64,000 nt of DNA, from assembly GCA_036362985.1 (NCBI GenBank), contig JAYGXS010000003.1, positions 798,141-862,140 of the forward strand, read 5' to 3'. The notes under the pieces were generated by a model. The model was not told the origin of the DNA and searched no databases. It saw nothing but the letters and a program-made list of their open reading frames with translations. This DNA comes from Ligula intestinalis (Eukaryota; Platyhelminthes; Cestoda; Diphyllobothriidea; Diphyllobothriidae). This document shows, piece by piece, positions 8,120 to 59,777 of the stretch. How positions within the stretch are numbered: position 1 is the first letter of the stretch; every line of letters begins with the position of its first letter. The translations under genes and the position numbers were made by a program.

Positions 8120-8196
8120 GATAGTGAAAAAACTCCTAAGGCTGGCTCATAATTCAAAATGGAAATTCATTTTTGGTTTTTAGGAGAAAAACTGTC
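8120..8196 (-). promoter_or_regulatory. ENE-like hairpin with U-rich internal loop (type 1)
   Basis: Sense strand: lower stem GACAGT with ACTATC (5 of 6 pairs), U4 on one side and U6C on the other, upper stem CTCCTAA with TTAGGAG (7 pairs), apical loop about 40 nt. It lies in the 3' UTR about 190 nt from the tail. Function is inferred from architecture only. Confidence 0.5.
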
Positions 8197-8639
8197 GCTC
8201 GTGGGGAAGCATGTGAATGATAGGGGCATGATGCTCCTGTGAATGTTGACGGTAGCCATGGCTTCCATGACGAGTAATATCTACACCCGAAGGACCATAC
8301 GAGGAGGAGACCTCGGAGTCACGAGAACGTCCCGAAGACCGGAGATGCGACCATGATACGACTTTGCTGTGCCAAGAGCCGAGGAACCCACCACGTCGTC
8401 AGCAGTCGGTCGATACGAGAAAGGGTGTGACAGGGCCGCATAGCCTAGGACCATAGGTGCGGTAGATGCGTCCTCAGACACGATCGGCGCGGATCGCATA
8501 GTGAGAAGAAACGTCATAGCTAGATAATGTCTGAAACACTCATTTGGTTAGAAACAAATAATATTACTTACAGATTACTATTAGCATATATTTATAGCAT
8601 TTCTAGCATTTCAGGGCTTGGATGTAGAGCGCTTCAATT

Positions 8640-11070: not shown

Positions 11071-11073
11071 GGA

Positions 11074-12329
11074 TCTAATAATAAACATAAGTTGTATATT
11101 TCAGGCCCAATGGGCCTCATCAATAAACCGAAAATTCGATAACACGAAGTGCTAGAAATAATTGCTTTCACAAACAGTATCCGTAGTCCATAGATATAAG
11201 ACGAGTATAACTGTTTAGAAGCGAATTTGTTAGATTCGAAAAAAATGAATATAGCAGTGTCATGCGAAAGGTGAAATTCAAGGGAACACACAGATGAGCG
11301 ACATCGTTATCTAGAATTCTGACTATGTATTCTGGTACCCGCTGCCTCCGTTAGTAAGGGGGAGGGGCTTGGAAGCAAACTCAGGCGAGGCTGAGTGTGG
11401 AGCAGAACAATAGGTATTACCGAAACATTACTGGTAAAGACGGGTTCCCGGCACTACACTCGGGTTCCCAAACCTGTGCGGCATAATGGAACATAGGGAA
11501 CCCACCAGCTTATGATCGTGATTGGCACCGCTGTATGATATCCAAAAGTCCGTCAAATTTACAAGACCATCGTTGGGCATGTCTGAGATGTGACCAAATA
11601 TAAGGCCCTGATGATGGTTGATGACCAGATAAACGAGAGCCGTCAAGACTGCGTCCTGATTCCGGGGTACATGAGTCAGAGGAAGGTAGTTTCAAGAAGG
11701 AATCCTAAATTTCCGATGGTCCTTTCTCCGGATTGTGGAGAAAGCTGCACGGAAAAGATGAGGAAAACAAAAGGTTAATAGATTCAGTGTTAAGATAAAT
11801 GTGCAGTCTTCGCTTGAATGCACATAGACTAGTCAATGCCCGAATATCAATCGGCAAATTATTTCCGAGCTAGCTATACCTAGAAGCAAAAAATAGAGAT
11901 CGCTTAGAAGTGGAAGAAGTAGGAGGAGGTATAATCAACTTTGAATTTCTTAGGTTGTAAGGGCGAGTAACGGGAGTAAGGGCAGAAATCTTGGGAAGAT
12001 TTGACCTATTATTAAGGCGAAACAGGAGACAAAACCCTGCTTCCAGTCTCCTGACCCAAAAAAATTTCAGTTTCGTTATCTCACATCTATCTGAGTAGGA
12101 AGTATCTGAAAATGCCGGATAGAGGACCTTTATAGTGAATCTTCTTTGGACACTTTCAATTTTTGAACGGCCAGATTCATTCATTAGACCGAAGAATGGA
12201 CAACAGTATTCGAGAATAAGAAGCACATTCATTCGATAAAGTCTTAGCTGCATTTCGGAAAGGTGGAAATTATAAGAGACGAAGCCGCATATCTGAGCAG
12301 CTTTTGCTGTAATTCTATCAGCGTGAGGT
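11074..12329 (-). pseudogene. Family B2 ORF2 C-terminus and 3' UTR (downstream half of a split copy)
   Basis: The frame at 11870-12325 carries the C-terminal thumb of a family B-type reverse transcriptase (PHADRITAKAAQICGF, ILEYCCPFFGLMN, FFWVRRLEAGF). It starts abruptly at PHAD, and the missing upstream part is found at 16210 (ending LDLSP), beyond an inserted family A element. The 3' UTR covers about 11074-11870, and no type 1 module was recognised in it. The first codons of the long frame at 12326-12460 belong to the inserted element, not to this copy. Confidence 0.75.
11104..11116 (-). promoter_or_regulatory. 3'-terminal hairpin GGCCC-ATT-GGGCC of family B2
   Basis: A perfect 5-bp stem with a 3-nt loop sits about 30 nt from the element's 3' end and is followed by an A/T-rich tail. 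The same stem with other loops occurs at 19803 and 49858. It is a candidate recognition site for target-primed reverse transcription. Confidence 0.5.
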
Positions 12330-12478
12330 ATCAGTATCAGTATCAGTATATTGAGGGTATGTAGGAAAAATTCCTTTGAGTGCCCTTTTTGTACATATGT
12401 GCAGTGGAAGCAAAAAATTTGTTGCTTAGACTGTTGGCGAGGCCAGTTTTCCTTAGTCATAGGATGAAAATAGGAGCA

Positions 12479-12522
12479 GACAGTGAAAAAACTCCTCAGG
12501 GATTTTTAGGAGAAAAACTGTC
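12479..12522 (-). promoter_or_regulatory. ENE-like hairpin with U-rich internal loop (type 1)
   Basis: Sense strand: GACAGT pairs with ACTGTC (6/6), the internal loop is U4 opposite U6C, CTCCT pairs with AGGAG, and the apical loop is 11 nt. It lies about 150 nt from the 3' end. A nearly identical module is found in the A copies at 44552 and 58029. Confidence 0.55.
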
Positions 12523-12903
12523 GCCGTTGTGGGGGTAATGCGTGGGATTTAGGAGAAAAAAGGGTGTTCCCACTGGGGGGGGGGGCATTGCAAATGTTCC
12601 CAGGATCATCACCGTGTGGAAGCCACGTCCTGATTCTTCCTTGCTGATTGCAGAGTCCACCGCGGAACTGGAAAAACAGAGGCATCCGTCCAGATCGTCG
12701 CCAGTCCGCTTTGGGTCGAACCCAGGGTGACTGTTTAGACCGGCAGGTCTGGCTGATAAAATCGCCCGCGGGTAATCACGGTACGCAGATAGCCAAGTAG
12801 GATAGTAGGAGGCATGAGGCTATGCGTGGGAGGGCGTTATAAATAGCAAACGTGAATGGATATAAAAACTAATACTACTTAAAAATTGGAAGTAGAATTA
12901 TTG

Positions 12904-15900
12904 TTATTGCAAATTGTCAGTTCCGATCCATCGTGCACTGCTATATCGATCCAGTTTTCGCTTAAAACCCTCTAGCGATTCCGACATAACAACGTCCTGA
13001 GGAAGCGCATTCCACGCTCCGACCACGCTTTTTGAAAAAAAGTGTTTCCGAGCGTCCAGCCTGGCCCCTGTCACCTTTAATTAGAGGGGATGACCCCTCA
13101 GATTCGTGGTCGTTGCTTTTCTAAAAAATCCTCTGATATAAGACAGCAGTCTTGAAGACGTAATACGCGGAATGCTAGTATCAGGTCCCCCCGAAGCTGC
13201 CTGTAGCGCAAAGGAAAGAGGTTGAGATTCGACAGCCGTGTTTCATAAGGCTGCGAGCCCTGCCCCATAACAAGTTTGGTTGCGCGCCGTTGTATCTTTT
13301 CCAGGATGTTGATGTCTTTCCTGGCCCAGGGTCTCCAAGCTTGAATAGCGGATTCTAGGTGCGGTCGTACGAAGGTTCCGAAGATTTTGTGAAGCACTCT
13401 TCATTGAAGGTAGAAAAAGCTCGTTTGACGAGGTATAGAATCGACATCGCGGACTTGGCTATCTTTGTGCAATGCAGGGAGGGTTTAAGCGAGGGTGTGA
13501 TCCAGACTCCCAAGTCTTTCTGGGCGTTCACTTCCTTAAATGGTATGTCATTCAGTCGGTAAGCCGTGCCGTTTGAAGAACCAGATTTGCCAACTCGAAT
13601 GGTGGTGCACTTGCTCTCATTGAACGGTAAGAGCCAGTGCGCCGACCATTTTTAAAGTCTATTTATATTTTCCTGTAAGTGCACTTTGTCAGCCGCAGTT
13701 CGAATTACGCTCCAAATTTTTATATCATCGGCAAACATGGCGATGCCGCAATCCAGTTCGCGGACACAGTCGTTGATGTAGATAACAAACAAAATAGGGC
13801 CGAGACCGGAGCCAAGGGGAACACCACTCTCAAACTCAACCTTGGCTGACTGTTTGTCGCTGATGTGGACAGTTTGCGAGCGACCGATTAGGAAGCTTTT
13901 TACCCACGTAAGGAGCCTACCCCTTACTCCTATGCGGCTGAATTTATAAAGGAGGCGGTGGTGCGGCACGCTATCGAAAGCCTTTTTGAAGTCAATATAG
14001 ACAGCATGCACTGAGTTTCCACTATCGACTGCCTCAGTCCACCATTCTAAACAGTAGAGCAAGTTTTTAACGCAGGACCTACCTCTACGAAAACCATGCT
14101 GAGCATCCGATAGCAGATTGTTTTGTTCCAGGAACTGAATAAGTTGTTGCTTGATAATTTTTTCGATGATTTTGCAACAGATTGCAGTAAGGCTGACTGG
14201 TTGGTAGTTATTCGCTGAGACCCGGCTTCCCCTCTTGTATAACGGTGTAATCCTCGCGGATTTCAAATCTACTGGTAGGCATCCGGTTTCGAAGGAGGTT
14301 TGGAAGAGCATAGAGAGTGGTTTGGCCAACTCATTGGTGAGCTCTTTCAAAATCTTGGCTGGTACGTTGTCGGGACCTGGTGACTTAGATTATTTAAGCT
14401 TAAGAGTTCCTTAAGAACAGCAGCCTCGGGGAATTGGACAGTCTTAACTACTGTATCCGCTTCGGTGTCGTCGGTGGGGTGATCTTATGCCGTTTCTTTT
14501 GTGAAGACTGATCGGAAAAATTTCGACAGATGATCAGCCTTCGCTTCATCATCTACCAAGTCTCTTCCCTCAGCGGTCCTTAGAAGGGGTATCGGATCCT
14601 TGTTTTTGTTACTCTGCCTGAGATAACTGTAAAACAGTTTGGGGTTCACTGTGGCCCAGTTTAGCAAGTTTGCTTCAAAAGCCCGTCTTGTTTTGAGAAT
14701 AAGACCCTTGACCCGGTTTCTCTGAGTTTTTTAGGCACTGACAGATGCAGGAGTCCTGTCTGCTAGCATTTTTTTCAACAGCTTCCGCTTTTTGTTCACT
14801 TCTATTTTTAAGGCCTGCGTAAGCCATCGCGGTCTAGTGTTCACCTTTTATCGCGAAATTGGACAGTGGTTGTCGATGAGTCTGTGTAGTGTGGTCCGGA
14901 ACGCTTCACAGTCCGCAGTTATGTTTCCAGAAAATAGAGTTTCCCAATCGGCGCGCGTGAGTTCGGTCTTCATTCAATCGAAATCGCCTCGCCAAATATT
15001 TCGTCTGGCTGTTGAGGGTCTCTCCGGTATTGAGAATAACGAGTACTCCCATAGCAGTACAACATGGTCGCTTTTACCTAGTGGTGGGAGACATGACACT
15101 TCATCGATGCTGTCCTACGATTTCGTGAGGACGAGGTCCAGACAGTTGGACTGTTGGCCATCGCGCATCCTCGTCGGAAAAGTGACGTGTTGCGTGAGAA
15201 ATAACTTCAGAGTCATGCTCAGAAGGCAGCTGTCGAAGGTTAGATCGGAGCTATGTGCGCAGGCCGCACCCCAGTCGATGTGAGGTGCGTTAAAGTCCCC
15301 CACAATCAGGATGTCCGATTGGGCAGTAATCTTTTCCAGCTCCTCTAGCAAGGAGGCATCCACTACTGGCTCTCTTCTCGGTGGTCGGTAGAGTGTCAGT
15401 ACATCGAGGTTGGGTGCACCTGGTACTTTAATGGACAGCCAGATGGCCTCCGAAGTACACGCCAGTTTCTCCGTTTTGTCTAAAACTGTGAGTCCATTTT
15501 CCATGTATGTTGCTACGCCACCGCCTTGACGACCTTCTCTGTCTTTTCTGAACAGTTGATAGCCAGGCATGGATACCTCGCCGTCGGCTACCTGTTCAGA
15601 CAGCCAAGTTTACGTTTTTAAAACTAGATCTGGTGATAACTCAAAGGCATGAATCCTCAGCTCGTCAAGTTTTGAAAGCGTACTCTGTGCATTTGTGTAC
15701 ATGAAAGTTAACTTTCTGTTTGCTCGAGAATTTGTTACAGTCAGGTTCTCCCCGCCCCTTTCCGGGTCGACTGTGCGGTCATCCGGGGAGCACCTTTCCT
15801 GGGGGAGAACAGTGGACGCTGGATCACTTGGTTGTTGTAAATAACCAAATGTTTTTCCCCTTCGTTCTGCCTCTGCATGTTTTTCGATTGGGCTCAATCC

Positions 15901-15948
15901 TCCCTCTACTGAGCGGACTGTGTGGTCATCCGGAACGGACCTATCCAA
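12904..15948 (-). pseudogene. Family A ORF2 (endonuclease + reverse transcriptase)
   Basis: The candidate start is Met at 15948, overlapping the end of ORF1. The endonuclease is open at 15115-15570 (MPGYQLFRKDREGRQGGGVA, VGDFNAPHIDW, CLDLVLTKS). A TGA follows RGDFD near 14966. The reverse transcriptase is open at 13652-14350 with NNYQPVSLT, HGFRRGRSC, motif A YIDFKKAFDSVPHH and the catalytic FADDIKIW intact; the conserved GVPQGS is changed to GVPLGS. The thumb is at 13098-13397 (FVRPHLESAIQAWRPW). The stop is at 12904-12906. About five lesions break it. Its closest relative here is the plus copy at 41125-44164. Confidence 0.85.
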
Positions 15949-15996
15949 GGTGAGAACAATGGACGTTGAATCACTTGGTTGTTGTAAATAACCAAG
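15827..15996 (-). repeat. 147-bp-spaced duplicated hairpins at the ORF1/ORF2 junction
   Basis: CTTGGTT-(9 nt)-AACCAAG occurs twice, at 15827-15849 and 15974-15996, exactly 147 bp apart, with similar flanks. The same arrangement is present in the plus copy at 41077-41246, so it belongs to the family. Confidence 0.6.
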
Positions 15997-16209
15997 TTTT
16001 GTTCGCCCTTGCTGGCCCGCTCCCTCTTTTCGGAAATAAGTTGACGACGTTTGTTCCGTTCTGCAGCTGAGAACTCCTGTTGAAAAAAAACTCCCGGGTC
16101 AGAGTCTTTTATTTTAATACGCCTAGATTGAATGAGCTTGGCGTCTTGGCTTTTTGTCATGACCACTTCCAGAGGTCTGGGACGTGCCGTTCCAGTTGGG
16201 CTCTCAGGC
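15906..16209 (-). pseudogene. Family A ORF1 C-terminus (truncated)
   Basis: This open end of ORF1 reads VMTKSQDAKLIQSRRIKIKD, SDPGVFFQQEFSAAERNKRR and then a basic stretch. The xPRPxKVV...A(K/E)xI...F...ERxxRR pattern is the RNA-binding ORF1 layout seen in several CR1 and Jockey families. It overlaps ORF2 by about 40 bp. The start is missing because the element is 5'-truncated at 16209. Confidence 0.7.
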
Positions 16210-18000: not shown

Positions 18001-18029
18001 TTTTGACATCAACTTCAGCTGCTGCAACT

Positions 18030-19790: not shown

Positions 19791-19802
19791 TTGTATATTT
19801 AA

Positions 19803-19815
19803 GGCCCAAGGGGCC
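19803..19815 (-). promoter_or_regulatory. 3'-terminal hairpin GGCCC-CTT-GGGCC of family B
   Basis: The 5-bp stem and triloop lie 13 nt before the TTA tail. The stem is identical and the loop different in two other B-type copies (11104, 49858). Confidence 0.55.
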
Positions 19816-19894: not shown

Positions 19895-19975
19895 GGCAGT
19901 AAAAAAAACTCCTAGCTCGGTGGATGAGTTCAGCGGGCCACCGAGTTCAAAAAAAGTTTAGGAGAAAAAACTGCC
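19895..19975 (-). promoter_or_regulatory. ENE-like hairpin with U-rich internal loop (type 1), compensated lower stem
   Basis: Sense strand: GGCAGT pairs with ACTGCC (6/6; family A has GACAGT with ACTGTC). The internal loop is U5 opposite U8. CTCCTA pairs with TAGGAG. The apical part contains a second perfect hairpin, CTCGGTGG with CCACCGAG. It lies about 105 nt from the tail. Confidence 0.6.
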
Positions 19976-20283: not shown

Positions 20284-23145
20284 TCAAATGCCAGGAGGAC
20301 CCTTTTCAAAATCTACAACTTGCGTGTTTGGAAAGGAAACAGACAGTAACGACTTTATTTCCTCTAAATTTAAATGCTTATATAATTTGCCTTTAAAAAT
20401 CGACAGTGTAGAAGACAGTCTAATATCGAGAGGAAGGTTGTTCAAAATAAAAGCATATTTGGAGGTAAAAAAGCGAGAACGGTTAGATGTGGAGCTACGG
20501 GGTGGTAAAATTATCATGGAAGAGTTACGAGTGGCGTAAGGTCGGTCAACTGGAAGGAGAGCGTTAATTTGTGGGAGATTAGGACTATTGTTAACGCGAA
20601 ACAGAAAGCATAGACCAGCTTCGAGTCTTCTTATCCAAAGACATTTCATGTTTGCTAATTGACATCTATCTGTATTACACATACCAGACCCAGAAACAGA
20701 AAATATTTTACGAGTGAAAACTCGCTGAACCTTTTCAATCTTACTACGGTCATGCTGGGTCATGAGGCCAAAAAGCAGGCAGCAGTATTCTAGTATAGGA
20801 AGAACAAACATGCGGTATAGTTTTAACTTCATTTCTAGAAGGAAAAAGTTATGCGATATAAACCCACATATCTGTGCGGCCTTGGCAGAAATTCGATCTG
20901 CATGAGGTGATAATGCAAGCTTATTCGTGTAAGTAAGACCCAAATCCTTTATCGTAGATCTTTCTAACAGTGGACTATTTTGGAAGATAATGGGTCCAGG
21001 AAGCCTTGCGGGACCAAAACTCAAGCAACTACATTTCGATGGAGAAAACTCCATCTGCCATGTTGCGCTACAACTTGAGAGAGTACGCAAGTCTGCGTTA
21101 ACTTTATCAACACAAATACTGGCCGTGTCCTTAGAAAATGAGTAAATACACTTAAGGTCATCAGCATAAATGAAATTTTCCGAATTATTTAGCACTGTTG
21201 AAATTTCATTTATGTAAAGAATGAAAAGGAGGGGACCTAAAACCGTGCCTTGTAATACACCACTCGTGATCGGCTGAGGCATCGAGTAGCTATTGCCTAC
21301 TAAGACCTTCTGGCTGCGGTTAGACAGGTAGGAGGCAATGAAATCGAGGAGGGGAGGCCTCATGCCTAGGGCTTCCAGTTTCACTAAAAGGCGCCTATGA
21401 GGCACCTTGTCAAAAGCTTTACTAAGGTCAAAGTAAATCACGATGACTGATTGCTGTTCATTACGAAGTGAAGTAACCAGGTTAAGGAATGCTAAGTGGC
21501 AGGTTTCGCATGATCTTCCAGGTAGAAATCCATGCTGTGAGGCACTTAATAGTTTATTTTCTACACAAAAATCGAGAATTTGATTAAAAATGATCTTTTC
21601 CAGAAGTTTGGCTAGGGCCGGGGTTTTATGAACACCTCGGAAGTTATTTACGTCGGAACGAGATCCTGACTTGAAGACTGGAAGAATAATAGATGTCTTC
21701 CATGAGTCAGGAAAGAAACCGTTTAGAAGATAAGCTGAGAATAGATAACTTAGCAATCGGGGGAAGCTGAATACTCTCTTGATAAGTGAATTTGGAAGGC
21801 CGTTAGTTCCCGAGAAGTGTGAGTTTTTAGACGGATAATGTGCTAACGGATTACTTCTATGGATAAATCTATGGTACTGATAGTATTGACTGAGCATGGC
21901 TGAAAAGACGGGACCGGTTCAGATTCCGTCGTAAGGTGTTTTGCAAAGAACGCATTGAACAGTTCAGCCTTCTCAGACTCATCTTGCACATAGTTTTTAT
22001 TTTCATTCAGAAAAGGGGGGATTTCGTGACCTCGTTTAGCGGAAGACCGACGGCGGAACAGTTGGGCAATCGATTTTGCAGAGTTTAACTCGCTGAGTGC
22101 GCAAGATTCCCTATGTTTGTCACGTGTAAGACGAATCTTAGACGCTAATTCGAAAATCTCTGCGATTCTAAGGTGCACCGATAATGAACTAGTAGACTGG
22201 TCTTTCAACTGTCTTTGCAATTTATTCAGTCTAGACATAAGAAAATGAGGAACGGTGGGGTCCGAAGTATAAGGCTTAACAATTTTGATCGGCACAAATT
22301 CCAAAATGCTATTTAAAATTGCCGTCATTAAGTCACCGAGGATTGTTACACTGTTCGTGGAGGAAAGCTCCTGCCAGTCTAGTGAGTCCATAAAGTTTTT
22401 AATTAAATTAATATCAACTAGGTCAAACGCACGGTAGGTACGAGTGGTGCTAGCCTTTTTCGTAGAAGCAAGCAGAAGGCAACAATGTATGGTCACTTGG
22501 GAAGAGGTTCTGATTGTAGTCAACAAAAAGGGATGAAATGTCATTCATGAAAAGTAAATCTAAAATATGCTGATCCCTTGTTGGGGAACAGACCAACTGA
22601 GACCACTTTGAAAAATTGATGGTATCTAGGAAGGGCTGAAATCTGGATGGACAACAGTTCAATGACCAATCAATTTCGGGAAAGTTGAAATCCCCTGCGA
22701 TAACTTTAGCATCAAAGGTGGACTCCGAAATCAGCCTTAATATTTCGCAAAGCTTTTCATCATCTTCCGATGTTGAGTTAGGTGGACTATAAATGCATCC
22801 AATAATCGCCTTTTGACGGGCAGACAGGATAATGGATGCAAAGCAGTAATTGCCCGAGAATGACTCAGCATCTACGTAGAAGGGGAAATGCTTAAAAGTA
22901 GCTTTAATATAGAGAAGACAACCGCCACCACGTTTACTAGGACGGTCTTGACGGTAGAAATCATACTCGTCTATTATGAGTAAAGCATCAGAAATTACTG
23001 GATGGGTCCACGACTCTGTAATGCATATAACATCTGGCTTCAGCTCGAACGCAATAGCTCTAAGCTAAGCCATCTTATTTAAAACAGATCTTGCATTAAG
23101 CAGGATGATATCTAGTGAAGCTTGAGTAATCGAACTAGGGTTATC
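20284..23145 (-). pseudogene. Family B CR1-like ORF2 (endonuclease + reverse transcriptase), few lesions
   Basis: The best B copy. The endonuclease at 23145-22450 has NARSVLNKMA, DVICITESWTHP, KRGGGCLLYIKATF, AGDFNFPEIDW and LDLLFMND; it is hit by a TAA near 23065 and a frameshift near 22490. The linker is open at 21843-22544 (MDSLDWQELSSTN, VPHFLMSRL). After a frameshift near 21870, 20284-21897 is one 537-codon frame with SGSRSDVNNFRG, HGFLPGRSCETCH, motif A VIYFDLSKAFDKVPHRR, GVLQGTVLGPLLF and an intact YADDLKC box. A long thumb follows, ending at FEKGPPGI. Ancestrally this is a full ORF2 of roughly 950 codons. Confidence 0.9.
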
Positions 23146-28570: not shown

Positions 28571-28599
28571 TTTATAATATAATATGTTTAGTATGCCAG

Positions 28600-28617: not shown

Positions 28618-28657
28618 GAGTTGGTAATGCACCTCCTGGGCACCTTCCAACACCTCG

Positions 28658-28778
28658 AAGACCGGAAAAAACCTAAAACAAACTCCGTATGTTGCGGCCA
28701 GTATTGGTTTTGTTTCAGGTTTTTTTTGTCAATACTGGTCGAGATAGGGAGTTTGTTTCAAGTGAAAAAACCTGCCTT
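28658..28778 (-). promoter_or_regulatory. Large hairpin with U-rich internal loop (type 2)
   Basis: Sense strand: AAGGCAGG pairs with CCGGTCTT (one mismatch and one wobble). U6 lies on both sides, followed by a long stem AAACAAACTCCCTAT with ATACGGAGTTTGTTT (one mismatch) and an inner stem CCAGTATTG with CAATACTGG. Confidence 0.5.
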
Positions 28779-29022
28779 CAAAGGTATGATACAAACGGAA
28801 TAAATGTACAGTTGTAAGCTGAGTTGCCTCGTGAGCAGGAGAACTGCTTCATATCGTTTAAAAACATAAGTTCCAGACGGAGAGGATAGGCAAAAGAACA
28901 CAGTGTTCTCAGTCTTCCTTCAATGGTTGTCGGCAAAAGTTGCACGCTATCGGCTGAAGGGTGAGCAGACTGCGGGCTGCTGCTTCAGCCGCATTATCTT
29001 CAGCAGTGAAGCCTGGCGGGGT

Positions 29023-34978: not shown

Positions 34979-35635
34979 AGTCCAGGAGAGTTCCCGCACA
35001 TTTTAGAGAAAACTGGCTGCTGTTGGAGGCTTTCCAGTCAATGGTCTCCAACGCTGATCAAATCAAAACTTAAGCAAAATTGTGCCTTGCCTCCTTTTCT
35101 AATCCTTAAAAATAAAAAAAACTAAGAAAAATTTATCGATTCCAATATTCTTCGAATTTCATCTCAATGTTTATAAAAAATTATTATAAAAGAAAATAAT
35201 TTTCCCTTCAACTATACTAAAATATATATTTTTTCCTCTTATATTGTATCAGAAGTAAAAATACTTATCATGTAAATCTCAATCTCACTTAGATATTCGA
35301 CAAACGAAAGGCCAAGTGTCTTCTGCCGATGCACTTGAATAACGATGGTGCTTCGCAGCTGCCTCGACCCCCCTCAGACATTTGCAACGTCCCAGCTAAT
35401 TATCAAACTTGTGCCAATGGACAACGATTATAATCTCCGTATCGAGCAGACCCGTGCTTACGAAGGATGCGATGTCCTCAGCTGATTTTTTTTGCCTTCA
35501 AACTGACCGCGGCTAAGTATAACTCAGTCAAAGGACATGACAGTTTTTCCATACCCCAAGTATTCTTTATATAAAACCGTAACACGTTCAATGTATAGCT
35601 AGTTAATTTCATGTTTTCCTAGATTTTTGCCCTAG
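34979..35635. other. Family G 3' UTR and unassigned spacer
   Basis: The first about 300 bp is A/T-rich and probably 3' UTR of the G copy. I recognise nothing at 35280-35635. Confidence 0.4.
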
Positions 35636-35815
35636 AAGTCAGGTTTTTTTCACTTAAAACAAACTCCTTATTTTGCACACTATTGACCTAGCAAAAGACC
35701 AAAACAAGTACAATAATCACTGCGAAAGAAGGGGTTTGGGTTAGGTTTTTTCCTGCCTTTCCGGGTTTTTGACGGCGCCAAAGATGTGCTTTACAAATAA
35801 ACCGTATTTAGACCT
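35636..35815 (+). mobile_element. Family C-type 3' end remnant with a type 2 U-rich hairpin
   Basis: AAGTCAGG (35636-35643) pairs with CCTGCCTT (35752-35759) except at one position. U7 and U6 flank it, and the next stem starts AAACAAACTCC. The sequence after it resembles the family C 3' end (GGCGCCAAAGATGTGC compared with TGCGCCAAATAGGTGC at 40148). It is an older, diverged copy. Confidence 0.5.
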
Positions 35816-38231: not shown

Positions 38232-40008
38232 TTAAGTCCAGGACCAGATGGCGTCCCAGTTAGCCTTCTAAAAGCTGATGCAAATCATATCTTTCCATCT
38301 ATTCTGCGTAAGGTATTTAATCTTGCTCTTGAGAGCGAAACCTTTTCTTGGTTGTGGAAGGAATCACAAATAATGCTTATTCGCAAGCATGGCCGATCGA
38401 CGTCATTCGACAACTTTAGGCCAATAAATACACTTCCCGCAGCATCGAAGATCTTGGAGACCTTAATCAAAGAAAAGATGATGCGTCACTTGACAGAAAA
38501 CAACCTGCTCAATGCAGCTCAACATGGCTTTATCGAGAAACGATCTTGAGACCCCTGTCAGCTCTCTTTCTTCGATTATGTGCTGCAATCTAGAGACAGC
38601 GGTTTTGCCACTTATGGCGTCTATTTTGATTTTACTAAGGCCTTTGATCGGGTCGATCATAACCTCCTACTTCTGAAAGTAGCCTCCTTCGGCATAGGCA
38701 GCAAGCCTCTGAACTTCTTGTCTTCCTATTTCGATGCTCGCACACAACGAGTAAAAATTTCCAATATTATCTCCAACCCCACGCATGTGAGGAATGGAGT
38801 TATACAGGGTAGTGTACTGGGTCCGCTCCTATTTTGCCTGTTTGTCAACCACGCTTCAGATTGTTTTCAGTATCGCAGACCCTTCATGAACGCTGATGAT
38901 TTAAAAATCGCTTATCGATATAAACCAGCAGATCGCAACATCGTGCTCGAGCTGATAAAAAAGGATCTTCAGGCCTTCGCCCAGTGGTGTTGCACATGGC
39001 GCCTCACCTTTTCATGGCACAAATGTTCCGTTATGGTTGTTGGCGACGATCATCAACCGGAATTAAGCATTGACGGCCACGAATTAAATGTCCCAGGAGT
39101 TATCAAGGATCTGGGCGTATCCTACTCTAATAGTCTCAATTTGTCAGAGCACTGTGCCCTGATAGTCTCGAAAGCACGCCGAACCACTGGATTTATCCTT
39201 AGAAATTGTAAGACTATAAAGGTTAAAACTAGCCTTTATAATATGTACGTGAGACCTAGCCCTGAATACTGCTCGCCTCTATTCAGTCTTCTGCGCACTA
39301 GTGAACGGAAGAAAATAGAATCGGTGCAGCACTTCTTCACGTGAAGAGTTTTCACGACAGAACACCGAAACTTAACCTACCAACTAAGGTGCGAACATAT
39401 AAAGCTGGATCACCTCTGGCTTCGTCGACTGCAGAGGGGTGTTTTTTTACTGTTTAAACTTTTGAATGGGCAGACCTTTAATCCTCTCACTACAATAAGG
39501 CAGCTTGAGCACTCTCGACGCGCCAGTCATCGAGACGTATTTTTATTTCTTCCGATGGCACGTACAGTTAAGTACCGGCAATTATTTTCAGTAAATGCCA
39601 TATCAATCTGGAATAAGCTGCCCAAAAGTATTAAAACCCAGCAAAACTACTCTATGTTTAAGAGAGCTATAACTATTTTTCTACATGCAGGACAACTTTC
39701 ACGAATTTTGGTTTCTGACTCGGTGGAATCTCTCTTTCACTCTGATGGCGTTCGTGGACTTTTAACCCCGCCAGGCTTCATGCTGAAGATAATGCTACTG
39801 AAGCAGCAGTCCGCAGTCTGCTCACCCTTCAGCCGATAGCGCGCAACTTTTGCTGATAACCATTGAAGGAAGACTGAGAACACTGTGTTCTTGTGCCAAC
39901 CCTCTCCGTCTGGAGCTAATGTTTTTAAAGGATATGAAACATTTCTCCTGCTGATGAGTCAACTCAGCTTACAACTGTTCATTTATTCAGTTTTTTATCA
40001 TACCTTAG

Positions 40009-40133
40009 AAGGCAGGTTTTTTTCACTTGAAACAAACTCCCTATCTCGCCCAGTATTGACAAAACAAAAAACCTGAAACAAAACCAATACTGGCTGCAAC
40101 ATAGGGATTTGTTTAAGGTTTTTTTCCGGTCTT
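40009..40133 (+). promoter_or_regulatory. Large hairpin with U-rich internal loop (type 2), family C 3' UTR
   Basis: AAGGCAGG (40009) pairs with CCGGTCTT (40126; one mismatch, one wobble). U7 lies on each side. The long stem AAACAAACTCCCTAT pairs with ATAGGGATTTGTTT apart from one bulge. The inner stem CCAGTATTG (40050) pairs with CAATACTGG (40085). It lies about 110 nt from the 3' end. Confidence 0.55.
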
Positions 40134-40173
40134 CGAGGCGTTGGAATGCGCCAAATAGGTGCATTACCAACTC

Positions 40174-40191
40174 TTTACAATTGCCTGTAAA
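40174..40191 (+). promoter_or_regulatory. 3'-terminal hairpin TTTACA-ATTGCC-TGTAAA of family C
   Basis: It is identical in stem and loop to the minus copy at 28600-28617 and is followed by the A/T tail. Confidence 0.5.
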
Positions 40192-40199
40192 CTGACATA

Positions 40200-40245
40200 A
40201 TAAACATATTGTAATATAATAATTATTATTAATATTATTATTATA
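40200..40245 (+). repeat. A/T-rich 3' tail (ATT)n of family C
   Basis: TAATAATTATTATTAATATTATTATTATA closes the family C element. Family F ORF1 sequence begins at 40246. Confidence 0.7.
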
Positions 40246-40536: not shown

Positions 40537-40546
40537 TGTTGGTGTT

Positions 40547-41167
40547 AGTGTTACAGGTCCGAGCCTGAAGCCCACAGTAGAAAACGAGGGCATAACATCA
40601 ACCATAGAGTCCGGTTGCACACAAGATGGTCATAATAGCAGCACAAGCGCTGTTAACGAGCAAGCAAGCGACAGTGTCGTAGGCACGAAAAATGGCACTA
40701 AGAGAGAAGCCAGCATCATAAGACAGGGATTGACGGAATCAACCGCAGCCACTCCCATGGACCGGCATTCCGCAGATGTCCAGCTCTTCCATGCACTTAT
40801 GAACAAAATGCTGGGACCCAATGTACCATTAGAGTGCGAAAAGGCCTTACGCCTTGGCAAATGGCCTGAGAGCTCAACTGGAACGGCACGTCCCAGACCT
40901 CCGAAAGTGGTCATGACAAGAAGCCAAGACGCCAAGCTCATTCTATCTAGGCGTTTTAAAATAAAAAACTCTGATCCGGGAGTTTTTTTTCAACAGGAGT
41001 TCTCAGCTGCAGAACGGAACAAACGTCGCCAACTTCTTTCCGAAAAGAAGGAGCGGGCCAGCAAGGGCGAACAAAACTTGGTTATTTACAACAACCAAGT
41101 GATTCAAAGTCCATTGTTCTCACCTTGGATAGGTCCGTTCCGGATAACCACACAGTTGGCTCAGTAG
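40547..41167 (+). pseudogene. Family A ORF1 (C-terminal two thirds), open
   Basis: The frame is open from the insertion border to a TAG at 41165. A Met at 40730 could start translation, but similarity across the border cannot be tested. Ser/Thr-rich start, then LFHALMNKMLGPNVPLECEK, ALRLGKWPESS, ARPRPPKVVMTRSQDAKLIL and a basic ERNKRRQLLSEKKERASKG. This is the RNA-binding ORF1 pattern. It overlaps ORF2 by about 43 bp. Confidence 0.7.
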
Positions 41168-41246
41168 AGGGAGGATTAAGCCCAATCGAAAACCATCCAG
41201 AGGCAGAACGAAGGGGAAAAACATTTGGTTATTTACAACAACCAAG
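41077..41246 (+). repeat. 147-bp-spaced duplicated hairpins at the ORF1/ORF2 junction
   Basis: CTTGGTT-(9 nt)-AACCAAG at 41077-41099, and TTTGGTT-(9 nt)-AACCAAG at 41224-41246. They straddle the ORF2 start at 41125 and the ORF1 stop at 41165. The same pair occurs in the minus copy at 15827-15996. Confidence 0.6.
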
Positions 41247-44164
41247 TGATCCAGCGTCCACTGTTCTCCCCCAGGAAAATGCCTCCCCGGATGACTGCAC
41301 AGCCGACTTGGAAAGGGGTGGGGACAGCCTGACTGTAAACAATTCTCGAGGAAACAGAAAGTTAACTTTCATGTTCACAAATGCACAGAGTATGCTTTCA
41401 AAGCTTGACGAGCTGAAGATTCATGCCTTTGAGTAATCACCAGATATAGTTTCAATAACGGAAACTTGGCTGTCTGAACAGGTAGCCGATGGCGAGGTAT
41501 CCATGCCTGGATATCAACTATTCAGAAAAGACAGAGAAGGTCGTCAAGGCGGTGGCGTAGCAACATACGTGAAAAATGGATTCACAGTTTTAGACAAAAC
41601 GGATAAACTGGCATGTAATTCGGAGACCATCTGGCTGTCCATTAAAGTACCAGGTGCACCCAACCTCGATATACTGACACTCTACCGACCACCGAGAAGA
41701 GAGCCAGTAGTGGATGCCTCCTTGCTAGAGGAGCTGGAAAAGATTACTGTCCAATCGGACATCATGATTGTGGGGGACTTTAACGCACCTCACATCGACT
41801 GGGGTGCGGCCTGCACACATAGCTCCGATCTAACCTTCGACAGCTGCCTTCTGAGCATGACTCTGAAGTTATTTCTCACTCAACACGTCAATTTTCCGAC
41901 AAGGATGCGCGATGGCCAACAGTCCAACTGTCTGGACCTCGTTCTCACGAAATCGCAGGACAGCATCGACGAAGTGTCATGTCTACCACCACTAGGTAAA
42001 AGCGACCATTTTGTACTGCTATGGGAGTGCTCGTTATTCTCAATACCGGGGAGACCCTCAACAGCCAGACGAAATATTTGGCGAGGCGATTTCGATTGAA
42101 TGAAGACCGAACTCACGCGCGCCGATTGGGAACCTCTATTTTCTGGAAACATAACTGCGGACTGGGAAGCGTTCCGGAACACACTGCACAGACTCCTCGA
42201 CACCCACTGTCCGATTTTGCGAAAAAAGGTGAACACTAGACCGCGATGGCTTACTCAGGCCTTAAAAATCGAAGTGAACAAAAAGCGGAAGCTGTGAAAA
42301 AAAATGCTAGCAGACAGGACTCCTGCATGTGTCAGTGCCTACAAAACTCAGAGAAACCGGGTCAAGGGTCTTTTTCTCAAAACAAGACGGGCTTTCGAAG
42401 CAGACTTGCTAAACTGGGCCACAGTGAACCCCTAACTGTTTTACAGTTACCTCAGGCAGAGTACCAAAAACAAGGATCCGATACCCCTGCTGAGGACCGC
42501 TGAGGGAAGAAACTTGATAGATGATGAAGCAAAGGCTGATCATCTGTCGAAATTTTTCCGATCAGTCTTCACAAAGGAAACGGCATACGATCACCCCACC
42601 GACGATACCGAAGCGGATGCAATAGTTGAGACTGTCCAATTCCCCGAGGCTATTGTTCTTAAGGAACTCTTAAGCTTAAAAGAATCTAAGTCACCAGGTC
42701 CCGACAACGTACTAGCCAAGATTTTGAAGGATCTCGCCAATGAGTTGGCCAAACCACTCTCTATGCTCTTCCAAACCTCCTTCGAAACACGATTCCTAAC
42801 AATAGATTGGAAATCCGCGAAGATTAAACCGCTATACAAGAGGGGAAGCCGGGTCTCAGCGAATAACTACCGACCAGTCAGCCTTACTGCAATCTGCTGC
42901 AAAATCATGGAAAAAATTATCAAGCAACAACTTATGCAATTCCTGGAACAATACCATCTGCTATCGGATGCTCAGCATGGTTTTCGTAGAGGTAGGTCCT
43001 GCGTTACAAACGTGCTCTACTGTTTAGAACGGTGGACTGAGGCAGTCGATAGTGGAAACTCAGTGCATGCTGTCTATATTGACTTCAAAAAGGCTTTCGA
43101 TAGCGTGCCGCACCACCGCCTCCTTTATAAACTCAGCCGCATAGGAGTAAGGGGTAGGCTCCTTACGTGGGTAAAAAGCTTCCTAATCGGTCGCTCGCAA
43201 ACTGTCCACATCAGCGACAAACAGTCAGGCAAGGTTGAGGTTGACAGTGGTGTTCCGCAAGGCTCCGTTCTCGGCCCTATCTTGTTTGTTATCTACATCA
43301 ACGACTGTGTCCGCGAACTGGATTGCGGCATCGCCATGTTTGCCGATGATATAAAACTTTGGAGCGTAATTCGAACTGCGGCTGACAAAGTGCACTTACA
43401 GGAAAATATAAATAGACTTCAAAAATGGTCGGCGCACTGGCTCTTACCGTTCAATGAGAGCAAGTGCACCACCATTCGAGTTGGCAAGTCCGGTTCTTCA
43501 AACGGCACGGCTTACCGACTGAATGACATACCATTGAAGGAAGTGAACACCCAGAAAGACTTGGGAGTCAAGATCACGCCCTCGCTTAAACCCTCCCTGC
43601 ATTGCCAAGTCCGAGATGTCGATCCTATACCTCGTCAAACGAGCTTTTTCTACCTTCAATGAAGAGTGCCTCACAAAAGTATTCGGAACCTTCGTACGAC
43701 CGCACCTAGAATCCGCTATCCAAGCTTGGAGACCCTGGGCCAGGAAAGACATCAACATCCTGGAAAAGGTACAATGGCGCGCAACCAAACTTGTTATGGG
43801 GCGGGGCTTGCAGCCTTATGAAACACGGCTGTCGAATCTCAACCTCTTCCCTTTGCGCTACAGGCAGCTTCGGGGGGACCTGATACTAGTGTTCCGCGTA
43901 TTACGTCTTCAAGACTGCTGTCTTATAACAGGGGATTTTTTCGAATTAGCAACGACCACAAATTTGAGGGGTCATCCCCTCAAATTAAAGGTGACAGGGG
44001 CCAGGCTGGACGCTCGGAAACACTTTTTTTCAAAAAGGGTGGTCGGAGCGTGGAATGCGCTTCCTCAGGACGTTGTTATGTCGGAATCGCTAGAGGGTTT
44101 TAAGCGAAAACTGGATCGATATAGTAGTGCACGATGGACCGTAACAGACAATTTGCAACAATAA
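41125..44164 (+). pseudogene. Family A CR1-like ORF2, nearly complete with few lesions
   Basis: Start Met at 41125. Endonuclease: ITETWLSEQVADGE, MPGYQLFRKDREGRQGGGVA (41503), IVGDFNAPHIDW (41765), CLDLVLTKS and GKSDHFVLL. Linker: NIWRGDFD. Reverse transcriptase open for 382 codons at 42514-43662: SPGPDNVLAKIL, NNYRPVSLT, HGFRRGRSC, motif A YIDFKKAFDSVPHH, GVPQGSVLGPILF, catalytic FADDIKLW. Thumb at 43616-44164 (FVRPHLESAIQAWRPW, WNALPQDVVMSESLEGFKRK). Lesions: TAA 41434, TGA 42097, TGA 42295, a frame change near 42300-42500 and another near 43617. The TGA after RGDFD is shared with the copy at 12330-16209. Confidence 0.9.
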
Positions 44165-44551
44165 TAATTCTACTTCCAATTTTTCAGTAGTATTGGTTTT
44201 TATATCCATTCACGTTTGCTATTTATAACGCCTTCCCATGCATAGCCTAATGTGAAGGTGTCCGTGGTCTTCCCTACTTGGCTATATGCGTACCGTGATG
44301 ACCCCGCTAGCGATCTTATCAGCCAGACCTGACGGCCTAAACATTCACCCTTTGTTCGACCCAGAGCGGACTGTCGACGATCTGGACGGATGACTCTGTT
44401 TTTCCAGTTCCGTTGGCGGACTCTGCAATCAGCAAGGAAGAATCAGGAAGTGGCCTCCACACGGTGATGATCCTGGGAAACTTTGCAATGCCCCCCCTCC
44501 AGTGGGAACCCCCTTTTTCTCCTAAATCCCACGCATTACCCCCACAAGGGC

Positions 44552-44595
44552 GACAGTTTTTCTCCTAAAAATCCCTGAGGAGTTTTTTCACTGTC
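44552..44595 (+). promoter_or_regulatory. ENE-like hairpin with U-rich internal loop (type 1)
   Basis: GACAGT (44552) pairs with ACTGTC (44590). The internal loop is U4 opposite U6C, and CTCCT pairs with AGGAG. A second TTTTTCTCCTAAATCCC occurs 45 nt upstream (44513), so the motif is partly duplicated. It lies 150 nt from the 3' end. Confidence 0.6.
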
Positions 44596-44744
44596 TGCTC
44601 CTACTTTCATCCTATGACACAGGAAAACTGGCCTCGCCAACAGTTTAAGCAACAAATTTTTTGCTACCACTGCACATATGTACAAAAAGGGCACTCAAAG
44701 GAATTTTTCCTACATACCCTCAATATACTGATACTGAATACCAT

Positions 44745-49592: not shown

Positions 49593-49684
49593 GAAGCAGT
49601 TTTTTCTCCTACGTTTTGTTTTTTAAGCGATGGTTCGCTGAACTCCGCCCCAGCTTTAATGGTAGGAGTTTTCTTCACGGCTTC
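49593..49684 (+). promoter_or_regulatory. ENE-like hairpin with U-rich internal loop (type 1), compensated stems
   Basis: GAAGCAGT (49593) pairs with ACGGCTTC (49677) at 7 of 8 positions. U5 lies opposite UUUUCUUC. CTCCTAC (49606) pairs perfectly with GTAGGAG (49662). The apical part contains AGCGA-TGGT-TCGCT and shares CGCTGAACTC with the copy at 19895. It lies about 210 nt from the 3' end. Confidence 0.6.
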
Positions 49685-49857: not shown

Positions 49858-49870
49858 GGCCCTCCGGGCC
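49858..49870 (+). promoter_or_regulatory. 3'-terminal hairpin GGCCC-TCC-GGGCC of family B
   Basis: Same stem as 11104 and 19803 with a different loop, followed by TTAAATATAAAATTTATTTAG, the A/T tail. Confidence 0.55.
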
Positions 49871-49904
49871 TTAAATATAAAATTTATTTAGTTATTTATA
49901 GAAG

Positions 49905-51505: not shown

Positions 51506-51738
51506 AAGATATATTCCTCGGTCCATCCTTCTCATTTCTTTGATGGAAATTCACAAACCTTCCAAATGGTGTTTCTTTATATTCTTAAAAGATCGGATAA
51601 GAAAAGGTTGCAAGAAATAAACCGATCAAAAGAAATAGAATTATAAGGTATAATTGTTTTTGTTATTAATTTATTTGAGGGACGCTCCGAGTATCGGTCG
51701 CGTCAATTCAAAGTTTCACTTCACGGCTACGTTGGAAA
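51506..51738 (+). promoter_or_regulatory. Presumed promoter and 5' UTR of the endophilin-B-like gene
   Basis: This is the only non-repeat sequence between the family D tail and the start codon. A TATAATTG-type A/T stretch lies at about 51650-51670. I see no defined core promoter element. The start codon context is GGAAAATGG, with A at -3 and G at +4. Confidence 0.35.
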
Positions 51739-57800: not shown

Positions 57801-59777
57801 TGCACTAATGTCACAACTCGAAATTATACCCTTAGGCATAAAACGGTAGCCTTGGGCGGCAGTCACAGCAATGAAAAACGTGACACACTTCAGTCACGAA
57901 GTTCTCGAATATCATCAGTATCAGTATATTGAGAGATATTGTACATATGTGCAGTGGTAGCAGAAAATTTGTTTCTCAGACTGTTGGCGAGGCCGGTTGT
58001 CCTGTGTCATAAGATGAAAATATGAGCAGACAGTGAAAAAACTCCTCAGGGATTTTTAGGAGAAAAACTGTCGCTCTTGTGGGGGTAATGCGTGGGATTT
58101 AGGAGAAAAAAGTAAGTTCCAACGGGGGGCATCGCAAAAGTTCCCAGGATCATTACCGTGTGGAAGCCGCGTCCTGATTCTTTCTTGCTGATTGCAGAGT
58201 CCGCCAATGGAACTGGAAAACAGAGGCATCCTAGATGACGAAAATTGTGAGGATTTTTCCCATTTTGTTAGGACGTCCTGTGAATCTGTAAGGCTAAGTT
58301 ATTACAGTACACGATGGTTCGTATTTCACGATCTGTCTTAGTGAACAGTGCCCTCCAACAAACTCTTCGAGCCAGAGTTCACATTTTCAAGTAGAATAAT
58401 AGCACTGATATCCTCATCTCGTAAGGGCGATAGTATATTCAAAGCACACAAGCAACGGTTGCCCTTCACCATATCAAGAACGTGCAATGCAGCCGAATTA
58501 TTCCTCGTCAATCCTACTAAAAGCCTTCCAACTAACGGAACAAAGGATGCCTTGCTGTTGCCTACCACGCTTAGGTGTGTGGATGAATCCACATGCACTT
58601 GGGGATGCGGGTATATTGGGCGAACACAAAGGCAGTTGCAGCCAGGGCTGCTGTGCACTTGTCTAAGTGGCTTTTCAAACATCAAAGCACAATACCACTG
58701 TTGGGACGGTCCGGACGCCTGTTATCATACTGTGAATCCGGAGGATACAAGAGCAAAGGCATCTTACTGGCGACCGGTTCATGCAGTTACAAGCGGCCTT
58801 CAAAGAACGGACATGAGCCAGGAAAAAGGAGGCACACGCAAGCAAGACTGCCCCGCGACCGGGTTGCTGTTTTCTGGAGGTCACGCTGAGGACAGATGCA
58901 CAGGCGCGCGTAAGCAAGCGCGCGCACGGCCACTGTTAAAGAGCCAATGACTACTGGCCCTTCAATATTCTGCCACCGCTGAAGGCGACACACTGCTGCC
59001 GGACACACAGAAGACCAAGCTGCTGGACACACAGGAACAGAGCTGATGCACTAGTAGAAGTGGCAGTAAAGTACTACCTGCTATCCTGTACTGCCTCCTC
59101 TTCCTAACACGTAACTGGGGGACATAGTCGGTGTTGACACAGGAACACACTCGCTTATAACAACTACGGTCCTCGATTACAAAGCAGCCACTAGACGGTG
59201 GTCATTCTGTTGACGGCTAAACAGCTTTGCGAGTACTCGTCCGCTGACGAATAACTCTAACCCTGTGCTATTTGAAGGCAGTCTATATGCGGTGAGTCAA
59301 TCTTCAATGACCCTGGTAGTCTCACGCCTAATTTCATGATTTGTGATAGCTTCCTTCCCCCCCCTCCCCTTTTTTTCTTTCCTATATGCCGGTTTCGAGG
59401 TAAAGTCTTTCATTTGATCAGTCTTTGCGATGAACTTTGATCCTTGCTGTGGAAATTCAAGCTGCTGTGTACTAATATTCGTTATCCATCTTTTTAAAAC
59501 GACGGCTTGCGTCTCATTAGTGGCCGGTGATTAGCGAAAGAACATCGCGGTTTGTACATATCAGCGGTTGAGGTGTGGTGGTAAAAACAATTTACTGAGT
59601 ATTAGGAACTCGCCTTTGAAAGATGCTTTTTCTTAACATGAATATGCTTTTTGGCTTTTACAGGACAAATTAACCAGTGGTCTAAAGGAGATGGCAGCAA
59701 CCCAGATGCGTTTCTACTCGATTTGCCTAGACCAAATGAAGGTGCTCTCGGAAAGACTGGAAAACCCTAAATTTTAA
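51739..59777 (+). CDS. Endophilin-B-like N-BAR domain protein, 7 exons
   Basis: Joined exons encode about 239 residues: 51739-51804, 51840-51981, 52172-52297, 52406-52539, 52721-52768, 55827-55916 and 59664-59777. All introns are GT-AG and all phases agree. The protein starts with an amphipathic helix (ALDGLRKFVDSTNTAFNRAV), continues through BAR helices (TYDGEMQMLMDAADKTHKTC, KVLDKFDAKKTQKL, VEIGQAERQLATDIQKNILT, FDEQLEITRAVLKQATG) and ends MRFYSICLDQMKVL...ENPKF. Order and spacing follow animal endophilin-B (SH3GLB), which bends membranes in endosome, autophagy and mitochondrial traffic. It lacks the usual C-terminal SH3 domain. Exon 5 is the least certain. Introns measure 35, 190, 108, 181, 3058 and 3747 nt. 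Confidence 0.85.
51840..51981 (+). CDS. Endophilin-B-like gene, exon 2
   Basis: Continues FTGEAAGSYSKTTYDGEMQM and ITAWLNTNP, BAR helix 1. The donor is A|GTATGT, phase 1. The RAVQ-FT junction matches the animal family. Confidence 0.85.
52172..52297 (+). CDS. Endophilin-B-like gene, exon 3
   Basis: Reads DRVQEKVLDKFDAKKTQKLT, then ELFGQLQQSLAQDLPGTN. Acceptor CCTAAG, donor A|GTACGT, phases 1 and 1. Confidence 0.8.
52406..52539 (+). CDS. Endophilin-B-like gene, exon 4
   Basis: Reads IALSQYGIVEVEIGQAERQL and FLTGIWPDIQ, the central BAR helix. Acceptor TTTTAG, donor CAG|GTGAGA, phase 0. Confidence 0.85.
52721..52768 (+). CDS. Endophilin-B-like gene, exon 5 (predicted)
   Basis: Sixteen codons reading HLRAARFCFNKNVVFE, chosen because the TTCAG acceptor and GAG|GTACTC donor keep phase 0 on both sides and fill the expected position between helices. 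An acceptor 13 nt upstream (TTCCAG) gives a stop in the required frame. Needs transcript support. Confidence 0.55.
52769..55826 (+). other. Intron 5 of the endophilin-B-like gene, nothing recognised inside
   Basis: About 3 kb without a recognisable exon, retroelement or RNA gene. The short frames inside show no motif. No further exon is needed to keep the protein in phase. Confidence 0.5.
55827..55916 (+). CDS. Endophilin-B-like gene, exon 6
   Basis: Thirty codons, LDAEKETKKAKFDEQLEITR and AVLKQATGVQ, matching the family's last long helix. Acceptor TTGATAG, donor CAG|GTAAGC, phase 0. Confidence 0.85.
56044..56070 (+). repeat. (GCGT)n microsatellite
   Basis: GCATGCATGCGTGCGTGCGTGCGTGCA, in intron 6. 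Confidence 0.9.
56352..56430 (+). tRNA. tRNA-like sequence in intron 6, probable SINE head or pseudogene
   Basis: CTCGTAGCTCAGTTATCTAG is a good D-arm/A-box. GGCT-GTACTAA-AGCC makes a 4-bp anticodon stem with a 7-nt loop. The B-box-like GCCTGAATTCC is imperfect and the acceptor stem does not close. It may be the head of a tRNA-derived SINE. Confidence 0.35.
56590..57730 (+). pseudogene. RTE-like reverse transcriptase fragment in intron 6
   Basis: Shifted frames show the RT in order: DFAAAFDATHRDSVWR (motif A, near 56612), ITALIKAYYRSNTA, IRSGVRHGCVLSPIFF (near 56770), LDYANDIAL in place of YADDIAL (near 56900), NAGKTKVFSCG, VDSFKYLGTRLLPNG (57090), then a thumb (RISTFTKVHIYRES-like; 57320 HYCLRIIFRVKFTDFVSSE) and the C-terminal WRRRRG-like part to about 57730. 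The GVRxGCxLSP and YLGxxxxxxG motifs mark the RTE group. The endonuclease is missing and the catalytic Asp is Asn. It is on the same strand as the host gene. Confidence 0.75.
57905..58240 (-). mobile_element. Family A 3'-end fragment in intron 6
   Basis: It matches the 3' UTR of the A copies at 12330-12720 and 44360-44744: ATCAGTATCAGTATA tail, CATATGTGCAGTGG, GGCGAGGCC and GGGGGTAATGCGTGGGATTT. It is severely 5'-truncated and carries no coding sequence. It is antisense to the host gene. The small AGGAA-TTT-TTCCT hairpin present in the other two copies is deleted here. Confidence 0.8.
58029..58072 (-). promoter_or_regulatory. ENE-like hairpin with U-rich internal loop (type 1)
   Basis: Stems, internal loop and apical loop are the same as in the family A module at 12479-12522. 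Its preservation in a non-coding truncated copy reflects its 3' position. Confidence 0.55.
58348..58770 (+). pseudogene. Penelope-like element fragment with GIY-YIG-type endonuclease remnant
   Basis: The frame gives CNAAELFLVNPTKSLPTNGTK, then after DESTC the motif WGCGYIGRTQRQL. After a frame change it continues AAVHLSKWLFKHQSTIP (58637-58690). A Cys-rich lead followed by YIGRT and an LPxWL-like segment is the layout of the C-terminal endonuclease of Penelope-like retroelements. The reverse transcriptase is absent. It is on the same strand as the host gene, in intron 6. The longer open frame to 58950 continues past the element and is probably chance. Confidence 0.55.
59664..59777 (+). CDS. 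Endophilin-B-like gene, exon 7 with stop
   Basis: Reads DKLTSGLKEMAATQMRFYSI and LDQMKVLSERLENPKF, then TAA at 59775-59777. Acceptor TTTTACAG. A CTCTCAG|GTAACG donor-like site lies 14 nt after the stop. In animal relatives the linker and SH3 domain would follow here. Confidence 0.8.
   Translation, partial: DKLTSGLKEMAATQMRFYSICLDQMKVLSERLENPKF

Follow-up and report, generated by a model that had tools for sequence, protein, structure and literature searches.

Elements for nuclear expression (ENEs) are reported from viruses, long noncoding RNAs (lncRNAs) and the transposons of plants and fungi (PMC12501189, PMC11411715). In Arabidopsis, an ENE in the 3' untranslated region (3' UTR) of the retrotransposon Evade (Copia93) is described as raising both RNA stability and mobility (PMC12501189). 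The transposon survey of Tycowski, Shu and Steitz (2016), as summarized in PMC12501189, yielded about 200 such motifs, mostly from plants and fungi and strongly linked to long terminal repeat (LTR) elements. Here we describe a hairpin with a U-rich internal loop, hereafter the module, in the 3' UTRs of long interspersed nuclear elements (LINEs) of the tapeworm Ligula intestinalis. It was studied in a window of 64,000 nt (positions 798,141-862,140 of contig JAYGXS010000003.1; source assembly 644 Mb). We consider it fairly probable that the module is an ENE-like poly(A) clamp of non-LTR retrotransposons. Among the papers listed by our literature searches, none described an ENE from a LINE or from a flatworm, the main survey of transposon ENEs lying outside those searches; nor does the whole word 'ENE' occur in PMC5135761. 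Tycowski, Shu and Steitz are said to have counted a single fish species among the transposon ENE hosts in 2016.

Like the Evade ENE, the module is a 3' UTR fold-back with U-rich tracts in a retrotransposon RNA; Evade, however, belongs to the LTR elements, its U tracts number four and its triple helix has been tested (PMC12501189), whereas the elements here are non-LTR, have one U loop and carry a predicted clamp. The ENEs of PAN RNA and MALAT1 belong to viral and vertebrate noncoding RNAs and form triple helices that have been shown (PMC4246217, PMC11411715), while here the RNAs are coding LINE RNAs and the helix is predicted. Transposon ENEs of plants and fungi, as described in PMC12501189 and PMC11411715, are likewise hairpins with a U-rich loop in transposon RNAs. 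The 3'-terminal stem-loops of stringent-type LINEs (UnaL2, ZfL2, SART1) resemble the module in being conserved LINE 3' UTR hairpins (PMC5135761); in several families here, by contrast, a candidate for such a terminal stem-loop is present as a structure separate from the module.

We found nine modules in the window, in six LINE families (A, A', B, B', D and E), at the following positions:

8120..8196, minus strand: module A', lower stem GACAGT/ACTATC with one C.A mismatch, U tracts, upper stem CTCCTAA/TTAGGAG
12479..12522, minus strand: module of family A copy 1, from the letters and the local-folding scan
19895..19975, minus strand: module B, lower stem GGCAGT/ACTGCC, tracts of U5 and U8
28653..28781, minus strand: type II module D1, GAAGGCAGG-U6 ... 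ACTTGAAACAAACTCC/GGAGTTTGTTTTAGGT ... -CCGGTCTTC
35630..35765, plus strand: type II module E, in family E
40005..40138, plus strand: type II module D2, in family D copy 2
44552..44595, plus strand: module of family A copy 2, lower stem 44552-44557/44590-44595
49593..49684, plus strand: module B', lower stem with an A.G mismatch, 3' tract TTTTCTTC
58029..58072, minus strand: module of a truncated family A copy, from the letters and the local-folding scan

The six type I copies had been pointed out in the initial annotation, and their positions and strands were borne out: each is in the 3' UTR of a LINE, in sense orientation. It had divided them between two families; the shared architecture stood and the family count did not, as there are four subfamilies, A, A', B and B', with three copies in A. 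The lower stem of 6-8 bp that it described is present, apart from the single mismatches of A' and B' in the window. In family A copy 2 the U tracts occupy 44558-44561 and 44583-44588 and the upper stem 44562-44566/44578-44582, and the three family A modules are identical across 44 nt. The type I U loop has a C-G pair above it; below it come U-A and then G-C. We found the 11-mer TTTTTCTCCTA nine times in the window, both strands counted and always in sense 3' UTRs, six times in modules and three times in half-sites upstream of the family A modules. This half-site, TTTTTCTCCTAAATCCC (44514..44530, plus strand; also near 12551 and 58101, minus strand), duplicates the 5' arm but has no 3' arm to pair with, and is conserved like the module, with no variable column among the three family A copies.

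Reading the 3' UTRs of the other LINEs in the window revealed the same plan at three places, in the more distant families D and E. The lower stem of these type II modules is either GAAGGCAGG/CCGGTCTTC, with one A.G mismatch and one G-U pair, or GAAGTCAGG/CCTGCCTTT, with one mismatch; each side carries a tract of U6-7, and the upper stem far exceeds that of type I in length. The pair below the loop is G-C, and the one above it A-U or C-G. Because a type I hairpin model gave no significant match to D or E, we grouped them with type I by architecture and position. In all nine modules, runs of at least four U lie where they would face each other across the hairpin, and folding predicts the loop in seven.

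An energy-based local-folding scan, which required an uninterrupted run of four or more U on each side of an internal loop and stems of at least 5 bp, returned eight loops in the window. Seven were in sense LINE 3' UTRs, A' and B' being missed, and ten Markov-shuffled windows gave 1-4 loops each, with a mean of 2.2. Counted per UTR, the loop was present in 7/9 module-bearing UTRs on the sense strand, in 0/11 on the antisense strand (these nine and those of two further LINEs, B3 and F) and in 4/440 shuffles. A stricter scan, which uses the letters alone without folding, returned six places, five type I modules and one elsewhere, compared with a mean of 0.2 in 20 shuffled windows. In the window the U loop belongs to sense 3' UTRs, and an equal frequency on the antisense strand or outside 3' UTRs, which the initial annotation had raised as a counter-argument, was not found. 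A function of the antisense strand was considered and rejected, since the U-rich loop occurs on the sense strand only (0/11 antisense UTRs); the energy z-scores of the four type I modules, which are equal or better for the antisense strand, speak against this rejection. Each scan also returned one U-rich internal loop that is not in a sense LINE 3' UTR, at 34129-34228 (minus strand, folding scan) and 51573-51643 (minus strand, letter scan); both are probably due to chance.

The pattern recurs throughout the genome. Three type I patterns matched 25, 1131 and 3134 times and their reversed forms 0, 23 and 0 times, and a D/E pattern matched 1759 times with none for its reverse; these are pattern matches on both strands, with partial overlap among the three type I patterns and an upstream LINE checked for few of them, and the counts for repeats may be lower bounds. 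Twelve of 13 fetched family A copies (L034-L046) were recovered, L036 being missed by the pattern. In 11 family A copies a TGATAC-type end lies 126-148 nt past the 3' arm of the module; the end of L041 is degraded. A hairpin model built from A and A' alone had B as its next best match in the window (E value 0.0006); B' scored 0.29, which is not significant and close to the following match at 0.43, and D and E were not found. When 20 evenly spaced 10-kb genomic stretches (200 kb) were put through the local-folding scan, eight matches appeared, near the chance rate. Two of these were clear modules, L061 and L057, and the hairpin model added L059. A reverse transcriptase (RT) with 62-67% identity lies upstream of L061 on the same strand; L057 is of the D type, and its RT was found on the opposite strand only. 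Another recurrent CTCCT..AGGAG hairpin, without U tracts, occurs in a different repeat (L047, L048). No relatives of the RTs were found in the viral contig or genome contig collections searched. In the viral collection 33 stretches match a short pattern and were inspected by eye; some of them received weak scores from the hairpin model (best E value 0.0038), so such short pattern matches alone are no evidence.

Aligned copies allowed both stems to be examined for compensatory change. A 40-row fit (37 distinct) had 96.0% of its cells paired and seven pairs changed on both sides. With 60 rows (57 distinct), 93.8% of 777 cells pair, compared with 87.0% after shuffling; among the 57 distinct rows, 7/9 lower-stem pairs change on both sides versus 4.6 in shuffles (1/500), and there are 50 double-change cells versus 15.2 (0/500), figures that are not probabilities because the structure guided the alignment and the rows are not independent of one another. 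Sliding the partners by 1-3 columns lowered pairing to 30-56%. Upper-stem positions 6 and 7 covary on the raw letters, independently of the structure fit. Position 6 is AT in 33 and TA in 7, and position 7 is AT in 24, CG in 11, TG in 4 and TA in 1. Each is paired in 40/49 copies, a level that none of 2000 shuffles reached; over 28 distinct combinations, position 6 is paired in 22 (6/2000) and position 7 in 21 (0/2000), and positions 8 and 9 showed no pairing above chance. The invariance of CUCCU/AGGAG in the fetched copies is uninformative because the search pattern fixed that core. When arms were exchanged among the six window families, the result was as good as the real one in 12/720 cases for the lower stem and 6/720 for the upper, where the contrast between type I and type II accounts for much of the effect. 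This is a weak test, as some foreign pairs beat the real one, for example the D1 5' arm with the E 3' arm. A lack of covariation, which the initial annotation had named as evidence against its proposal, was not what we found: the stems covary over genomic copies (57 distinct rows). That both flanking stems are real is supported by compensatory change at upper positions 6 and 7 as well as in the lower stem.

When related families are compared, conservation in the 3' UTR also falls mainly on the module. A and A' have no significant similarity there apart from the module arms (20/20, 100%, and 20/22, 91%). D and E share the module at 76% identity and a separate 30-nt match (E value 0.004), and B and B' share the module at 70% and a terminal segment at 74%. 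Among the three family A copies, 0/44 columns vary in the module versus 37/229 in its flanks (p=0.0013), and the block from the upstream half-site to just beyond the module has two variable columns in 87.

How would such a module work? The initial annotation had likened it to an ENE; covariation upholds the secondary structure and the genome counts the pattern, and the clamp function is a prediction. The element RNA would end just after AATAAA or AATATA and carry a poly(A) tail. The tail would enter the U loop, where the two U strands would sandwich it in a U.A-U triple helix. Once clamped, it would be deadenylated and degraded more slowly, and the stabilized RNA would give more retrotransposition. 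Reverse transcription would start inside the 3'-terminal repeat, leaving the tail uncopied into DNA.

The 3' ends of the elements bear on this scheme, and the relevant features are as follows:

7930..7935, minus strand: AATAAA at the 3' end of A'
19794..19815, minus strand: terminal hairpin GGCCC..GGGCC of family B, followed by AATATA
35796..35801, plus strand: AATAAA downstream of the E module (E 3' end not defined)
40174..40204, plus strand: weak terminal hairpin TTTACA..TGTAAA of D2, followed by AATAAA
44722..44727, plus strand: AATATA at the 3' end of family A copy 2
49858..49879, plus strand: terminal hairpin GGCCC..GGGCC of family B', followed by AATATA

Each of the six families has AATAAA or AATATA on the 3' side of its module, within D in D2 and not in D1; the background is 33/754 windows of 60 nt, the hexamer pair having been picked after the sequences had been seen. 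AATATA has been proposed as a cestode polyadenylation signal, and in an Echinococcus retrotransposon the polyadenylation site is reported to follow it, mostly at a distance of 12-15 bp (PMC4558846). These downstream hexamers give partial support to poly(A) as the partner of the module. A clear hairpin stands just before the terminal repeat in B, B' and B3 (-12 to -17 kcal/mol for the folded stretch), and shorter ones in A, A' and D2; folding of the 3' ends gave no clear terminal hairpin in D1, E or F. In B3, which is without a module, the terminal hairpin and AATATA are both retained, and F has neither hexamer near its end. Family A copy 2 (40537-44740) is inserted in a repeat whose uninterrupted copy, 27614-28574, gives the insertion site as about 28040, and this insertion ends in a TGATAC repeat without poly(A). 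Insertions that end in short repeats would fit an RT start inside the terminal repeat with the tail uncopied. Arrays of 54-bp units lie within the dispersed target repeat, at 27761-27893 and 40264-40385.

Several results weigh against a poly(A) clamp. The initial annotation had suggested looking for oligo(A) at element 3' ends; those genomic ends that can be read consist of short repeats rather than poly(A). In whole-3' UTR folds, with A_c6 left out and the module end 80-176 nt before the 3' ends used (that of E being arbitrary), the module prevails in A_c4, B, D1 and D2, forms in part in A_c2 (P ~0.4) and E (lower stem 0.2, upper stem 0.6), and has a probability near zero in A' and B'; the fold program does not represent a bound tail. 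Energy z-scores, given as sense/antisense, are -1.6/-1.9 for A, 0.1/-1.8 for A', -3.7/-5.3 for B and -1.2/-2.4 for B', so that none of the four type I modules folds worse antisense than sense, the sense energies of the whole A, A' and B' modules are unremarkable, and D1, D2 and E alone favour the sense strand. The innermost lower pair of type I is U-A, and published ENE tests are described as stressing G-C pairs adjoining the U loop (PMC12501189). LINE 3' UTRs B3 (11080-11707, minus strand) and F (51225-51500, plus strand) show no module, either on reading or in the scan. No Rfam family matched at gathering score, and at E values up to 5 bases 8000-58300 gave one unrelated weak match only. Finally, CUCCU/AGGAG is identical across all four type I subfamilies of the window, and it also occurs in most of about 100 matches listed when any pyrimidine/purine stem was allowed, mostly family A copies. 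Such conservation exceeds what a clamp requires and leaves room for a protein ligand or for RT recognition.

The latter is the alternative that survives best, although we think it unlikely: the module would be an RNA recognized by the element's RT or by the protein of its first open reading frame (ORF1), which would read the U strands and CUCCU/AGGAG by sequence. The letters of the core are indeed conserved across the window's four type I subfamilies, and stringent LINEs are reported to require 3' UTR stem-loops, as R2 requires 250 nt of its 3' UTR (PMC5135761). Known recognition stem-loops, however, lie at the very end of the 3' UTR according to the same source. Recognition through the module is weakened because several families have separate terminal hairpins, clear ones before the tail in B, B' and B3 and shorter ones in A, A' and D2; B3, moreover, retains its hairpin without having a module, and the stem beside the U loop differs in D and E.

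More doubtful is a host RNA-binding protein that would use the U strands and the pyrimidine stem as its site, in export, translation or localization, without any triple helix. In its favour, UUUUUCUCCU is a strong pyrimidine tract, and family A has a second, equally conserved upstream copy that lacks a partner arm. A site bound as a single strand would, however, need neither two facing U tracts nor covarying flanking stems.

It is also conceivable, though improbable, that the loop is closed not by the tail but by an A-rich strand encoded in the element, the apical strand in D and E. In family D this strand is complementary to the 3' arm of the module, U tract included, with predicted pairing energies of -18.7 kcal/mol in D1 (1/500 shuffles as good) and -16.2 kcal/mol in D2 (2/500), better than nearly all shuffles. 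Two mutually exclusive folds may therefore be possible in this family. The pairing is weak in E (42/500 shuffles as good), B and B' lack an apical A tract, and inspection by eye of the 3' ends examined found no common downstream A tract that could serve as a general partner. Chance, or a functionless relic of shared ancestry, we regard as very improbable: many copies are old and decayed and folding loops occur at about the chance rate in the 200 kb of genomic stretches, but the reversed controls gave 0, 0 and 23 matches against 3134, 1759 and 1131, conservation is largely confined to the module and the terminal segment, and the stems covary.

Returning to the poly(A) clamp, its wider form is one that we put forward tentatively, as somewhat short of an even chance. 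A triple-helix module that clamps poly(A) would be common to at least six tapeworm LINE families and present in thousands of copies. Non-LTR retrotransposons would thereby have an ENE system in an invertebrate reportedly without a canonical piRNA (PIWI-interacting RNA) pathway, and the A-rich strand of family D could replace the tail and toggle the clamp. If true, animal LINEs would join viruses, lncRNAs and the transposons of plants and fungi in clamping RNA tails, and LINEs whose insertions end in short repeats would still depend on the poly(A) tail of their RNA. It would also add an RNA-level step in tapeworms, which have been reported to lack the canonical piRNA pathway (PMC6880638). Even with a protein as the ligand, the module would be a conserved 3' UTR structure, with thousands of matches to its pattern in a single genome.

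The host elements are assigned to the apurinic/apyrimidinic endonuclease (APE)-type non-LTR retrotransposons from their endonuclease and RT domains. The window is a nest of LINEs on both strands that carry these domains, and Pfam places Exo_endo_phos (endonuclease) and RVT_1 (RT) upstream of the modules on the same strand; besides these two, one domain of unknown function (DUF) matched below threshold. The RT domains (PF00078) of three of them are as follows:

20287..21918, minus strand: RT domain of family B
38550..39341, plus strand: RT domain of family D copy 2
42436..43659, plus strand: RT domain of family A copy 2

At the DNA level the RTs are 64% identical between A and A', 71% between B and B' and 56% between D and E. 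The nearest named proteins to those of the window come from the tapeworms Spirometra, Sparganum and Schistocephalus, which are diphyllobothriideans. Family A copy 1 (12329-16210) sits within the RT region of B3, another LINE. An open frame of 201 aa without a Pfam match occupies 58345-58947 (plus strand), an assembly gap of 100 N lies at 31246-31345, and 144-bp units are repeated in tandem, in 2.7 copies, at 25862-26245.

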